DNA from: Ferrovaceae bacterium
GTDB lineage: Bacteria > Pseudomonadota > Gammaproteobacteria > Burkholderiales > Ferrovaceae
Reading direction: 5' to 3'
DNA length: 64,000 bases
Assembly: GCA_027311025.1 (NCBI GenBank)
Contig: DAICZS010000001.1
Location: forward strand, 136,310-200,309
Shown: one piece after another, positions 21,811 through 26,346 of the stretch
Position numbering within the stretch: position 1 is the first letter of the stretch
Layout of the letters: each line of letters begins with the position of its first letter
Notes under the pieces: model-generated
The model's database searches: none
What the model saw: the letters and a program-made list of their open reading frames with translations, nothing else
What the model was told of the DNA's origin: nothing
Translations under genes and position numbers: made by a program

Positions 21811-22284
21811 TTAGAACATCGGCTTGATCAGAGGGGTGGAGATGATCGGCGCCACCGACGGAGCCACGACGGGCTTCGGTGCTGCTGGTTTGGCCATTGC
21901 AGGCTTGGCAGCCGGCTTTTTGGCGGCGACCTTCTTCACTGCAGGTTTGGCAGCCGGCTTCTTGGCAGCAGGCTTCTTGGCAGCGGCCTTTTTGGCAGCT
22001 GGCTTCTTGGCTGCGGCTTTCTTGGGAGCGGCCTTCTTGGCAGCCGGTTTCTTGGCTGCAGCCTTCTTGGCGGCCGGTTTCTTGGCTGCGGCTTTCTTGG
22101 GGGCAGCCTTCTTGGCGGCCGGTTTCTTCTTCGCTACGGCCTTCTTGGCGGCTGGTTTCTTTGCTGCGGCCTTCTTGGGGGCAGCCTTTTTGGCTACGAC
22201 CTTCTTGGGGGCTGCGGCTTTCTTGGCGACTGTTTTCTTGGCCGCAGGTTTCTTCGCTGCGGGTTTCTTCTTGGCTGCTACCAT
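21811..22284 (-). CDS. Histone H1-like Lys/Ala/Pro-rich DNA-binding protein
   Basis: The 157-residue protein is built almost entirely of KKPAAKKA-type repeats, with a short hydrophobic C-terminal tail ([14 protein letters not shown]). Composition and repeats resemble bacterial histone H1-like proteins and the AlgP/HctB class, which bind DNA through the basic repeats; its exact role here is inferred. The ATG at 22284 has AAGGAG 8 nt upstream. The frame stays open another 186 bp upstream, but a promoter placed inside that stretch argues against the longer form. An operator-like dyad matching sites at the MarR gene lies about 215 bp above the start. Repeat number is likely to vary between strains. 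Confidence 0.9.
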
Positions 22285-22460
22285 CGTTGACTCCTTGTCA
22301 GTATTGATCGGTTGTTCCAGATCGTTCGTGCATTGCACTACCAAGTGGGACCAATCGATCTTTCCGATGAACCCACACAAAGGGCACTGGTGAACTTCAC
22401 TGCATGCCTCTTGGTGATTGGATTCTATTTCAGAAAATTGCTGATAGGAGCATTCAGCGA

Positions 22461-22489
22461 TGTATAACAAAGATTATTTTGACTGTTCA
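22461..22489 (-). promoter_or_regulatory. Probable promoter of the histone H1-like gene
   Basis: On the minus strand TGAACA and TATACA are spaced by 17 bp, each matching the sigma-70 consensus at four or more positions. The predicted start near 22454 gives a leader of about 170 nt. The leader (22285-22454) is less G+C-rich than the genes around it and holds no other feature I could recognise. Confidence 0.5.
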
Positions 22490-22497
22490 TGCGAAAT

Positions 22498-22518
22498 TTA
22501 GTATCGACACGATACCAA
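22498..22518. promoter_or_regulatory. MarR-type operator dyad upstream of the histone-like gene
   Basis: GTATCG-ACA-CGATAC is a perfect 6+6 dyad, extended to TTAGTATCG and CGATACCAA. Its reverse strand, TTGGTATCG-N3-CGATACTAA, matches the dyad at 24223 at almost every position. It lies about 10 bp upstream of the proposed -35 of the histone-like gene and 38 bp after the lysA stop. Confidence 0.65.
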
Positions 22519-22555
22519 TATTTGGATATTGCCGGTTTTAAAGTAAGACGAAAGC

Positions 22556-23827
22556 TTACAGGTCATCCCGGAGGGGCCATTCGTCCCGGTAGAGATCCGT
22601 GACGGACTCGCGTCGGCGAATCAGATGGGCGCGATCCCCGTCCACCAGGATTTCCGGCGGACGTGGGCGGGCGTTGTAATTCGAACCCATGGATGCGCCG
22701 TAGGCGCCGGCCGAGAGGATGGCCAGCAGGTCTCCCTGGTCCACGGCAAGCTTGCGGGCGCGGCCCAGAATGTCGCCGGTTTCGCATACGGGCCCCACGA
22801 CATCCATAACGGCAGCTGGGCCCGTGCTTTCAGTGACGGGGAGGATTTCGTGCCAGGCCTCATAGAGCGAAGGGCGGATCAGATCGTTCATGGCCGCATC
22901 GACGATGGCAAAACGGTGGGTGGCAGAGGTTTTGAGGTACTCCACGCGCGTCAGTAACAGGCCGCCATTGCCGATGATCCTGCGCCCGGGCTCGAGCAGC
23001 AGGCGGCCTCCAAACCCCTTTAAACGGGTGGCCACCGCGCGGGCATAGTCCTTGAGGTCAATGGGGGTTTCGTCTCGATAGCGGATGCCAACGCCGCCAC
23101 CCAGATCCAGGTGATGCAGCGGGATGCCTGATTGCGCCAGCTGCTCTACCAGCAGCAGGATTTTTTCAAGGGCGGCGACAAAGGGAGAAAGCTCGGTGAT
23201 TTGAGAGCCGATGTGGCAGTCGATACCGCTGACCTGAATGCCTGGAAGGGATGCCGCCCTTTGATACAGTGCCAGGGCGTCGGCATACGCCACGCCAAAC
23301 TTGCTTTCCTTGAGCCCGGTAGCAATGTAGGGGTGGGTTCCCGGATCGACGTCCGGGTTGACCCTCAAGGAGATGGGGGCGCTGACCCCCAGGCTCGAGG
23401 CCACCTGTGACAGGCGTTCCAGTTCGGCTGCGGATTCCACGTTAAAGCACAGCACACCGGCGCGCAGGGCTTGTGCCATCTCGTCCGCAGTTTTACCCAC
23501 CCCGGAAAAAACCACTTTCCCCGGGTCTCCGCCCGTTGCCAGTACGCGGCTGAGCTCGCCCCCCGAAACGATGTCGAAGCCGGCGCCCAGCCTTGCAAGC
23601 AGGCTCAGGATGCCCAGGTTGCCGTTGGCCTTGACGGCATAGCAGATGAGCGGTCGAAGTGACGCAAAAGCCTGTTCAAATTCACCAAATGAGGCCGTGA
23701 TGGCGGCTTTCGAGTAGACGTAGCAAGGGGTGCCAAATCGTTCTGCCAGATCGGTCAGGGGCAGGGCTTCGACGTGCAGCACCCCGTGTGAGCGGGTGAT
23801 GCCAGGGGGCAGGAAGGAATCGGTCAT
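22556..23827 (-). CDS. lysA: Diaminopimelate decarboxylase
   Basis: LysA makes lysine from meso-diaminopimelate using PLP. The 423-residue protein has the PLP lysine K66 in YAVKAN, SGGEL, HIGSQI, GGGVGIRY, EPGRRIIGNGG and the C-terminal CETGDILG and GAYGASMGSNYN motifs. The ATG overlaps the lptM stop by 1 nt (TAATG), so the two genes are translated together. The order lptM-lysA is widely conserved. Confidence 0.97.
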   Translation of the reverse strand: MTDSFLPPGITRSHGVLHVEALPLTDLAERFGTPCYVYSKAAITASFGEFEQAFASLRPLICYAVKANGNLGILSLLARLGAGFDIVSGGELSRVLATGGDPGKVVFSGVGKTADEMAQALRAGVLCFNVESAAELERLSQVASSLGVSAPISLRVNPDVDPGTHPYIATGLKESKFGVAYADALALYQRAASLPGIQVSGIDCHIGSQITELSPFVAALEKILLLVEQLAQSGIPLHHLDLGGGVGIRYRDETPIDLKDYARAVATRLKGFGGRLLLEPGRRIIGNGGLLLTRVEYLKTSATHRFAIVDAAMNDLIRPSLYEAWHEILPVTESTGPAAVMDVVGPVCETGDILGRARKLAVDQGDLLAILSAGAYGASMGSNYNARPRPPEILVDGDRAHLIRRRESVTDLYRDEWPLRDDL

Positions 23828-24003
23828 TATGGTGTTGAACCGTCAGGGGTCTTGGGTTTGGCTGCGTCAGGCTGGGGAGCAGGAGGGCGCGCCGGCGCTT
23901 GTGGAGGGAGCGTCAAGGCGCTCTTGAGTCCACAACCCGACAGGAGCAGTGCAGATGCGAACGCCAACGCACGGCGTCGGGGTGGAAATATCTGGTCTTT
24001 CAT
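23827..24003 (-). CDS. lptM: Small outer-membrane lipoprotein LptM (YifL-like)
   Basis: This is a 58-residue lipoprotein with an arginine-containing n-region, a hydrophobic core and the lipobox LLSGC. After the lipidated Cys comes GLKSALTLPP, close to the GLKGPLYLP signature of LptM, which in E. coli assists LptD maturation. The remainder is Pro/Ala-rich. The ATG at 24003 gives the shortest complete signal peptide; the frame extends further but without sense. It directly precedes lysA. Bases 24004-24222 upstream hold no gene; an inverted repeat GTTGTT-N5-AACAAC lies at 24122-24138. Confidence 0.9.
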   Translation of the reverse strand: MKDQIFPPRRRALAFASALLLSGCGLKSALTLPPQAPARPPAPQPDAAKPKTPDGSTP

Positions 24004-24222
24004 GCGCAAAAGTCTATCACATGGGCCGCAAACGACGATTATTCTGCATTTTGGCTTGTCCGGATTCACAAAAAAATCATGGGCTCCTCTGAAACCCGCG
24101 CCAGTCATTGCTTTCAAGACAGTTGTTGAATTAACAACAGATTTGAAAAATGAGGTTGACTCGGGGCAAAAAAGGGCTATTTAAACAAAAAAACCTCGAT
24201 TTTCAGGGGGATAGGTGGGGTA

Positions 24223-24242
24223 TGGTATCGGTTCGATACTAA
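24223..24242. promoter_or_regulatory. MarR-type operator dyad, distal, at the regulator gene
   Basis: TGGTATCG-GTT-CGATACTA is a 6+6 dyad with a 3-nt spacer, almost identical to the one above the histone-like gene at 22498-22518. It lies 21 bp upstream of the proposed -35 hexamer of the regulator gene. Confidence 0.65.
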
Positions 24243-24262
24243 AAAAATCAATATTTGAATTT

Positions 24263-24291
24263 TTGACAAAATGGTATTGACTCGATAGTAT
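24263..24291 (+). promoter_or_regulatory. Promoter of the MarR-type gene, overlapped by a second operator
   Basis: A consensus -35 (TTGACA, 24263-24268) is followed after 17 bp by TAGTAT (24286-24291). A third, weaker dyad, GTATTG-ACT-CGATAG (24274-24288), fills the spacer and part of the -10. This layout is typical of autorepression. The predicted transcription start coincides with the ATG at 24298, suggesting a leaderless mRNA. Confidence 0.65.
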
Positions 24292-24297
24292 TATTCC

Positions 24298-24891
24298 ATG
24301 CTCAAGAACCCGGTTGTTCTCCTTGATCTCGTGGATCGCCTCGCAAACCTGATGCGTTCAGAGTTTCGGCGCATTGGTAGCGAGGAGGGCCTGCAGCCAG
24401 TACATATCCAGGCCCTGATGTTTCTGGAACAGGCCAACCGCTTCAGCAATACGCCCCAAGCCCTGGCTGAATATCTGGGCCTGACCAAGGGCACGGTATC
24501 ACAAAGCCTGCTGCTGCTGGATCGTCGCGGTTTGATCGAACGCTATCAGGACGAATTCGATAAACGCGTGGTGCGGTTGCGGCTCAGCCAGTTGGGTGAA
24601 GCGTTTTTAAGTGAGTCGACGCCTGCAGCACTATGGCAAACGGCAACCCGTGACATCAGTGCCAACCGCGTCCGGTTTAGCGTCTCGGTGCTGAGAAGCA
24701 TCGTTTACGAGCTGCAAAACTACAATGGTGGCCCCCCCTTTGGCGTGTGCAGCACCTGCATCTACTGCCAAAGAAAAAGCCAGCGCATCCACCACTGCAC
24801 CTGGTTTGGCGAACGCCTGTCGGGTCCTGAAACCCGCAAAATATGCCGGGAGCAGGTGCCCAAGACGGGGTACCTTAGCGTAGCTGAGTAG
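24298..24891 (+). CDS. MarR-type transcriptional regulator with C-terminal cysteine cluster
   Basis: The 197-residue protein has a winged-helix region (about 30-105: [29 protein letters not shown]) of MarR type. After a helical linker comes an unusual tail with five cysteines, C151-x2-C154-x2-C157-x9-C167-x15-C183, which could bind zinc or an iron-sulfur cluster. Two operator-like dyads cover its promoter and a third lies above the histone-like gene. There is no Shine-Dalgarno before the ATG. The last 17 bp overlap the convergent argH gene. The effector is unknown; a metal or redox signal is inferred only from the cysteines. Confidence 0.85.
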
Positions 24892-26284
24892 CCCGGGCAG
24901 CCCTTACGGCCGCCAGAACCTGTTCTGGAGCCGTCCCTCCTGGCACGTTGCGGCTGGCCAGGGATCCTTCGATGGTCAGTACTTCAAATACATCCGGTTC
25001 AATCGTGCCAGAAAACCCCTTGAGGGTTTCCAAAGACAGGTCTGACAGGTCGCAATGCTGGTCTTCTGCCAGTCGAACGGCCTTCGCCACCACTTCGTGG
25101 GCGTCCCTGAAGGGCATGCCCTTCTTGACCAGATAGTCGGCCAGATCCGTGGCGGTGGAAAACCCCTCCAGGGCGGCGCGACGCATGGCTTCCTCGTTGA
25201 CGGTAATGTCCCGCAGCATTTCGGCAAAGATGGACAGGGTGCTGGACAGGGTGTCGGCCGTATCAAACAGGGGCTCCTTGTCTTCCTGATTATCCTTGTT
25301 ATAAGCCAGGGGCTGGCCCTTCATCAGGGTCAGCAGCGCCATCAAATGGCCTGTCACGCGCCCGCTTTTGCCCCGGGCCAGTTCAGGAACGTCCGGATTG
25401 CGCTTTTGCGGCATGATCGACGAGCCCGTGCAAAAGGCGTCTCCGATCCGGATAAACCCGAATCGGGGGCTCATCCAGAGGACAAACTCTTCCGAGAGGC
25501 GGGAGATGTGGGTCATGATGAGCGCGCCGGCGGCACAGAATTCAATGGCAAAGTCTCGGTCAGAGACGGCATCAAGGGAATTGAGGCAAATGGACTCAAA
25601 ACCCAGCAGCTCGGCAACACGCTCCCGTCGGATGGGGTAACTGGTGCCGGCCAGCGCAGCAGACCCCAGGGGCAGCCGGTTAACCCGATGGCGGCAATCG
25701 GACAGTCGCTCGCGATCGCGCCCAAACATTTCGACATAGGCCATCATGTGGTGGCCAAATGTGACAGGTTGCGCGACCTGCAGGTGGGTAAACCCGGGCA
25801 TCGGGGTTGCTGCATGACGCTCGGCCAGATCCAGCAAGGCAGCCTGAACGGCGCGCAGCAAGCCGTTGAGGTGATCAATCTCATGGCGCAGGTAGAGCCG
25901 GATGTCGGTGGCCACCTGGTCGTTGCGGGAGCGGGCGGTATGCAGGCGCTTTCCCGCATCACCAATGAGTTGCGTCAGGCGACGCTCGATGTTGAGATGA
26001 ACGTCTTCATCGTCCAGATTCCAGGGAAACCGCCCCCCTCGCACTTCCTCGAGGAGGGTTGCCATGCCAGACTGGATGGCCTGGAGGTCGGCGGGGGTAA
26101 TCAGCCCTGCCTCGCTCAGCATCTGGGCGTGCGCCAATGAACCCTGAATGTCGAATTCAGCGAGGCGCCGGTCAAACTGCACCGATGCCGTATAGGCCTT
26201 GACGGATTCAGCGATGGGAACGGAAAACCGTCCGGACCATACTTTTGATGGAGAACCCGTATCGGGCTTGCCGTTTTGAGTCAT
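24875..26284 (-). CDS. argH: Argininosuccinate lyase
   Basis: ArgH splits argininosuccinate into arginine and fumarate, the last step of arginine synthesis. The 469-residue protein contains the superfamily signature [12 protein letters not shown], plus [13 protein letters not shown] and [11 protein letters not shown]-like segments ([16 protein letters not shown]). The ATG at 26284 has AGGA 8 nt upstream and is preferred to the ATG at 26293. It is divergent from the cNMP/CBS gene, with 62 bp between starts, and its 3' end overlaps the MarR-type gene. Confidence 0.97.
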
Positions 26285-26346
26285 GAGAAGCATCCTGGTT
26301 ACTATTCAACGCCCGTAAAGTATAGTGCATCCAAGGCCAACGTCCC

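Follow-up and report, generated by a model that had tools for sequence, protein, structure and literature searches.

A cysteine-rich MarR-type regulator and a histone H1-like gene share a predicted, conserved operator in seven families of Burkholderiales

We describe a MarR-family protein with four conserved cysteines (Cys4) from a Ferrovaceae bacterium that very probably acts as a dedicated local regulator of only two promoters, its own, which it would repress, and that of a histone H1-like gene on the far side of lysA, which it likely activates. Both genes lie in the 64,000-nucleotide stretch of DNA analyzed here (the window), which comes from a 2.23 Mb genome that is 99% complete. The initial annotation had pointed to three dyads, two at the promoter of the regulator and one above the histone-like gene, and all three were found with their starts shifted by 2-3 bp. 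Exact copies of GTATCG-N3-CGATAC occur at 22501-22515 (GTATCGACACGATAC), the predicted H1 operator, and at 24225-24239 (GTATCGGTTCGATAC), the predicted distal marR operator, while the predicted proximal marR operator at 24274-24288 (GTATTGACTCGATAG) is a degenerate copy with two mismatches. The reported near identity over about 20 bp of the histone copy and the distal regulator copy also holds, as the reverse-complemented 22501 copy matches the 24225 copy at 19 of 21 positions (TGGTATCG-N3-CGATACTAAA). Between the two operator regions lie lysA, encoding diaminopimelate decarboxylase (22556-23827, minus strand; TIGR01048, 3.6e-154), and a small lipoprotein gene.

With up to two mismatches allowed, the window contains four matches to the dyad versus 0.86 expected, a number reached in 0 of 100 shuffles. 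Throughout the genome (2,228,210 bp) there are exactly two perfect dyads, one above marR and one above the H1-like gene, where composition predicts about 0.11, and there is one copy with a single mismatch. A genome-wide motif search had been proposed earlier, with many random copies to be taken as evidence against a shared operator; it returned no good copies beyond the marR and H1 promoters. Dyads with two mismatches number 49 genome-wide as compared to 41 for a reversed-pattern control, so the third site at 24274 is not significant alone, and a chance match that is just as good is present at 23067 inside lysA. Support for the third site comes instead from conservation, given that 48-49 bp separate the two marR dyads in both the window's own family (f1) and a second family (f23), with the proximal copy located in the promoter spacer. 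That the dyads are incidental palindromes, arising from a terminator-like hairpin after lysA, a repeat or chance, is highly improbable. The 22501 dyad is located 40 bp past the lysA stop codon and could form a weak hairpin, but it lacks a downstream T-run, marR promoter spacers contain the same dyad, exact copies are limited to two in 2.23 Mb, and the dyad is conserved across families while its flanks diverge.

The circuit is present in seven families of the order (f1, f17, f23, f29, f35, f43 and f50). Of 32 f1 genomes, 19 carry an ortholog of the regulator, with the dyad kept upstream of all 19 in every region examined, and orthologs from f17, f23, f29, f35, f43 and f50 exhibit 48-68% identity. 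Gene order in the fetched loci is retained as H1-like gene, lysA, (cyaY) and marR, mostly flanked by mtgA and argH (the latter at 24875-26293, minus strand, downstream of marR in the window; TIGR00838, 2.5e-182), and an H1-like reading frame is found at the expected place with the dyad 200-330 bp upstream of it. Using a weight matrix trained only on f1 marR-upstream sites, a dyad site was detected in the H1-lysA intergenic region of all 35 marR-bearing loci (p<=0.01, Markov shuffles). In contrast, no dyad was found between lysA and the neighbouring H1-like gene at 41 lysA loci from genomes that lack an ortholog. Nine of these marR-less loci are comparable, in that lysA is adjoined by a gene for a lysine-rich or H1-like protein (L210, L211, L216-L219, L228, L234 and L237), and a contrast of 35/35 versus 0/9 yields a Fisher p of 1.4e-9 with relatedness ignored, a value that, like the other p-values, exaggerates independence because the loci are phylogenetically related. 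The same contrast is also seen within families, both in f1 (g4, whose lysine-rich genes are only loosely H1-like, versus the rest) and in f43 (g50 and g70 versus g102 and g120). Dyads on the marR side are weak or undetected in f50, in f43 with the exception of genome G256, and in part of f23. The counts strongly support the view that dyad and marR were lost together, with the predicted operator missing where the regulator is missing. They likewise lend strong support to a shared operator and to the proposal, made in the initial annotation, that the regulator acts on its own gene and on that of a nucleoid-type protein.

The regulator (24298-24891, plus strand) is a 197 aa protein that is assigned to the MarR family by both profile scores and structural modelling. 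It matches Pfam MarR_2 (PF12802) at 4.5e-11 with 43.2 bits (cut-off 27) and PF01047 with 29.4 bits (cut-off 24.6). An AlphaFold2 model of the monomer has a MarR winged-helix fold to approximately residue 147, and the best Foldseek matches are MarR proteins, with ST1710, HucR, HpaR and MarR as the nearest solved folds. The C-terminal tail, modelled at low confidence (pLDDT <50), contains the motif C151-x2-C154-x12-C167-x15-C183, with all four cysteines invariant in the 19 orthologs aligned (19/19) and also present in most of the sister-clade tails inspected. Three or four invariant cysteines are a hallmark of iron-sulfur winged-helix sensors, and the tail probably serves as a sensor based on a metal or an iron-sulfur centre, zinc being as possible as an Fe-S cluster. 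A winged helix with conserved C-terminal cysteines is shared with ArnR, SufR and NsrR, and three cysteines of ArnR, a repressor of the NO-detoxifying hmp gene, are needed for its [4Fe-4S] cluster (PMC12343034). The protein described here differs from these regulators in its cysteine spacing (C-x2-C-x12-C-x15-C), in its predicted H1-like and P460 gene targets, and in that its cluster is only putative. PADLOC also returned weak wHTH matches to the regulator that were disregarded.

The predicted marR promoter (24263-24291, plus strand) is composed of TTGACA (24263-24268), a 17 bp spacer and TAGTAT (24286-24291), and with 6 nt between the end of this -10 element and the ATG, the mRNA is predicted to be leaderless. 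Members of f1 outside genus g2 have the same layout, with TTGACA or a near variant, 17 bp, a TATTAT-like -10 element and 6-7 nt to the ATG. In these promoters the proximal dyad occupies the -35/-10 spacer (in the window it also overlaps the -10 element), and the distal dyad lies 48-49 bp upstream where both exist. The mean best -35 match among marR promoters is 5.16 of 6. As read from these predicted elements, the placement of the dyads is a repressor arrangement. A dimer of the regulator would bind TnGTATCG-N3-CGATACnA at its own promoter and, across lysA, at the H1-like promoter; at marR, a dimer located between consensus -35 and -10 elements would block RNA polymerase, resulting in autorepression. 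The g2 relatives have a Shine-Dalgarno sequence at marR in place of the leaderless arrangement.

The H1-like gene (21811-22284, minus strand, with the start codon at 22284, a small correction to the earlier reading) codes for a Lys/Ala-rich protein of 157 aa of the HC2 type. Its score against PF07382 HC2 is 71.5 bits, above the curated cut-off of 40 but partly driven by composition because the profile is of low complexity, and against the Burkholderia histone H1-like family NF038053 it scores 66.9 bits, below the equivalog cut-off of 80. This type of Lys/Ala repeat protein is also represented by chlamydial Hc2, by Burkholderia-type H1-like proteins (NF038053) and by AlgP of Pseudomonas aeruginosa, a DNA-binding protein with KPAA repeats (PMC9239181); unlike AlgP, the protein encoded in the window has no N-terminal helical domain. 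Its gene further differs from known bacterial H1-like genes in that it adjoins lysA and has a dedicated, predicted MarR operator.

In contrast to the repressor-like marR site, the site at the H1-like promoter is positioned like that of an activator, a distinction that goes beyond the initial annotation. The predicted -10 element TAGAAT (22422-22427, minus strand) has no matching -35 element, and the mean best -35 match of H1 promoters is 2.28 of 6, below the random value of 2.76. In most families, TAGAAT and the dyad centre are separated by 81-82 bp. The predicted transcription start, which like all starts given here is a prediction from sequence, is the C of CACCAAG, with the dyad centre 92-94 bp upstream (about 93 bp in the window). 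This distance is 83 or 72-73 bp in parts of f23, one or two helical turns less, while in f43 it is 99-100 bp and thus off the approximately 10-bp steps seen elsewhere. On the H1 side of the dyad, 27-28 bp from its centre, there is additionally a CAAAAT/CAAATA box (22474-22482, minus strand) conserved in f1, f17 and f23. Because the dyad lies some 93 bp upstream of a predicted start that has a good -10 and no -35 element, we modestly favour activation over repression, with the bound regulator most likely aiding activation, perhaps together with a protein that binds the CAAATA box. Repression of the H1-like gene, for example by competition with a CAAATA-box activator or by DNA bending or looping, is the less probable reading but one to be taken seriously, as MarR proteins are in most cases repressors, the site of this regulator at marR itself is in a repressor position, and the distance of 27-28 bp between CAAATA box and dyad centre is invariant. 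It is opposed by the distance of about 80 bp between the -10 element and the dyad, which places the dyad upstream and outside of the core promoter, and by the missing -35 element, which is typical of activator-dependent promoters. Were the H1-like gene repressed, inactivation of the regulator would induce marR and the H1-like gene together. In f50 (L181-L184), all four loci have two half-degenerate dyads above the H1-like gene, with a spacing of exactly 74 bp.

The predicted 5' leader of the H1-like gene (22285-22416, minus strand) begins with CACCAAG and contains a complementary conserved motif, CTTGGTAGTGC (22335-22345). Predicted leaders of 130-180 nt, or about 215 nt in genus g67 of f23, lie at the same place in L109, L172-L177, L186-L189 and others and are conserved across families; they contain a CTTGG(T/A)AGTGC sequence that can pair with CACCAAG. 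Column-shuffled versions of the f1 and f23 leader alignments fold worse (0/60). Covariation is modest, with two-sided changes in 7 of 27 pairs and an unfavourable covariation term, and we therefore do not claim a structured RNA as proven. A search of Rfam with the leader gave no match.

The size of the regulon was addressed with a profile built from 25 sites and searched over 16 genomes, 14 of which are marR-bearing and two marR-less (G011 and G013). Best matches in the 14 marR-bearing genomes were the marR and H1 sites, and in f23 and in f1 outside g2 the matches were essentially limited to these sites. The profile had no match in G011 or G013. From these scans we conclude that the regulon comprises two promoters. 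A wider regulon was considered for g2, whose genomes have 9-20 one-mismatch dyads each, and was rejected as nearly all of those inspected are within open reading frames and give no consistent target set. The marR-less g4 genomes have 2-11 one-mismatch dyads, which are probably compositional because the flank-aware profile finds none in the two genomes tested. An extra profile match in the window's own genome (C50:72303, E 0.076) lies within an open reading frame and was likewise dismissed as a target.

A class-wide search of 369 genomes recovered homologs of the regulator, with 33-44% identity, in 20 other genomes, a wider family that also goes beyond the initial annotation. Among 28 homologs outside of the H1-linked group, 17 are encoded close to a gene for cytochrome P460 (PF16694), in 16 cases in divergent orientation. 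In a tree with a midpoint root and some long branches, the 40 H1-linked proteins form one clade with support of 98/94. At 15 of the 17 P460-linked loci there is a dyad that differs by no more than one mismatch from GTATCG/CGATAC, GCATCG/CGATGC or GTTTCG/CGAAAC. The connection of this MarR to the dyad rests on sequence comparison, and a different transcription factor could in principle use the dyad to control both marR and the H1-like gene; this is improbable, however, as dyad and marR are lost together and members of this MarR family from other orders have the same dyad at their promoters in P460-linked loci that involve no H1 gene. G256 (L189) has a divergent P460 gene with two dyads beside marR as well as an H1-like gene with its own dyad across lysA; with one regulator and sites at P460 as well as H1, this genome resembles an intermediate of regulon rewiring. 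No P460 gene was found in the genome of the window.

The signal may also be approached through the sister clade, located beside genes for cytochrome P460, truncated globin and protoglobin. Since NO and hydroxylamine are ligands or substrates of P460 proteins (PMC5872139, PMC11928373), NO, heme or redox stress is a reasonable guess, although these neighbourhoods are an association hinting at such a signal and not proof of it. It is possible, but on balance unlikely, that Cys4 MarR proteins make up an undescribed NO-, heme- or redox-sensing class that ancestrally controlled P460 and was retargeted in Burkholderiales to an H1-like chromosomal protein. If so, nitrosative or redox stress would directly set nucleoid packaging through a two-promoter circuit.

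As a local regulon, the proposed circuit is of a known kind. MarR, HucR, HpaR, MepR and SlyA are autoregulated local regulators, and they share with the protein described here a winged-helix fold, palindromes in the own promoter, which are conserved here and would be its operators, and a neighbouring target gene, predicted in the present case. The circuit departs from them in that the predicted target is an H1-like gene across lysA with an activator-like site position, and from solved MarR proteins in that the Cys4 tail lies outside their matched regions, which end by about residue 141. MarR-family proteins have been tied to nucleoid proteins before, as SlyA and RovA are counter-silencers of H-NS (PMC5797941, PMC6401476); those proteins counteract a nucleoid protein at the promoters of their targets, whereas the regulator described here would control production of one. 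Our literature search, with subscription journals mostly outside its coverage, found no account of a link between MarR and H1-like proteins, no MarR regulator of P460 and no regulator given for bacterial H1-like proteins. As we read it, control of bacterial H1-like protein expression is largely unknown, and a specific candidate regulator and operator are now available in seven families. The features that appear new are the predicted H1-like target, the four-cysteine tail, a site placed as for an activator, and the tie to regulators associated with P460.

Several additional features were seen in the wider family. P460-linked paralogs L194, L196 and L198 have GCATCG-N3-CGATGC upstream, and because genome G080 carries both L198 and the H1-linked regulator L192, this operator of coexisting paralogs suggests that DNA specificity has diverged. 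Cys-tailed MarR homologs also occur near genes for the heme proteins truncated globin (PF01152, L199) and protoglobin (PF11563, L200). Finally, a DUF2024 gene with a CxFCHS motif is located between the Cys4 marR and P460 genes in L255 and L266 (PF09630 confirmed for L266) and beside marR in L264.
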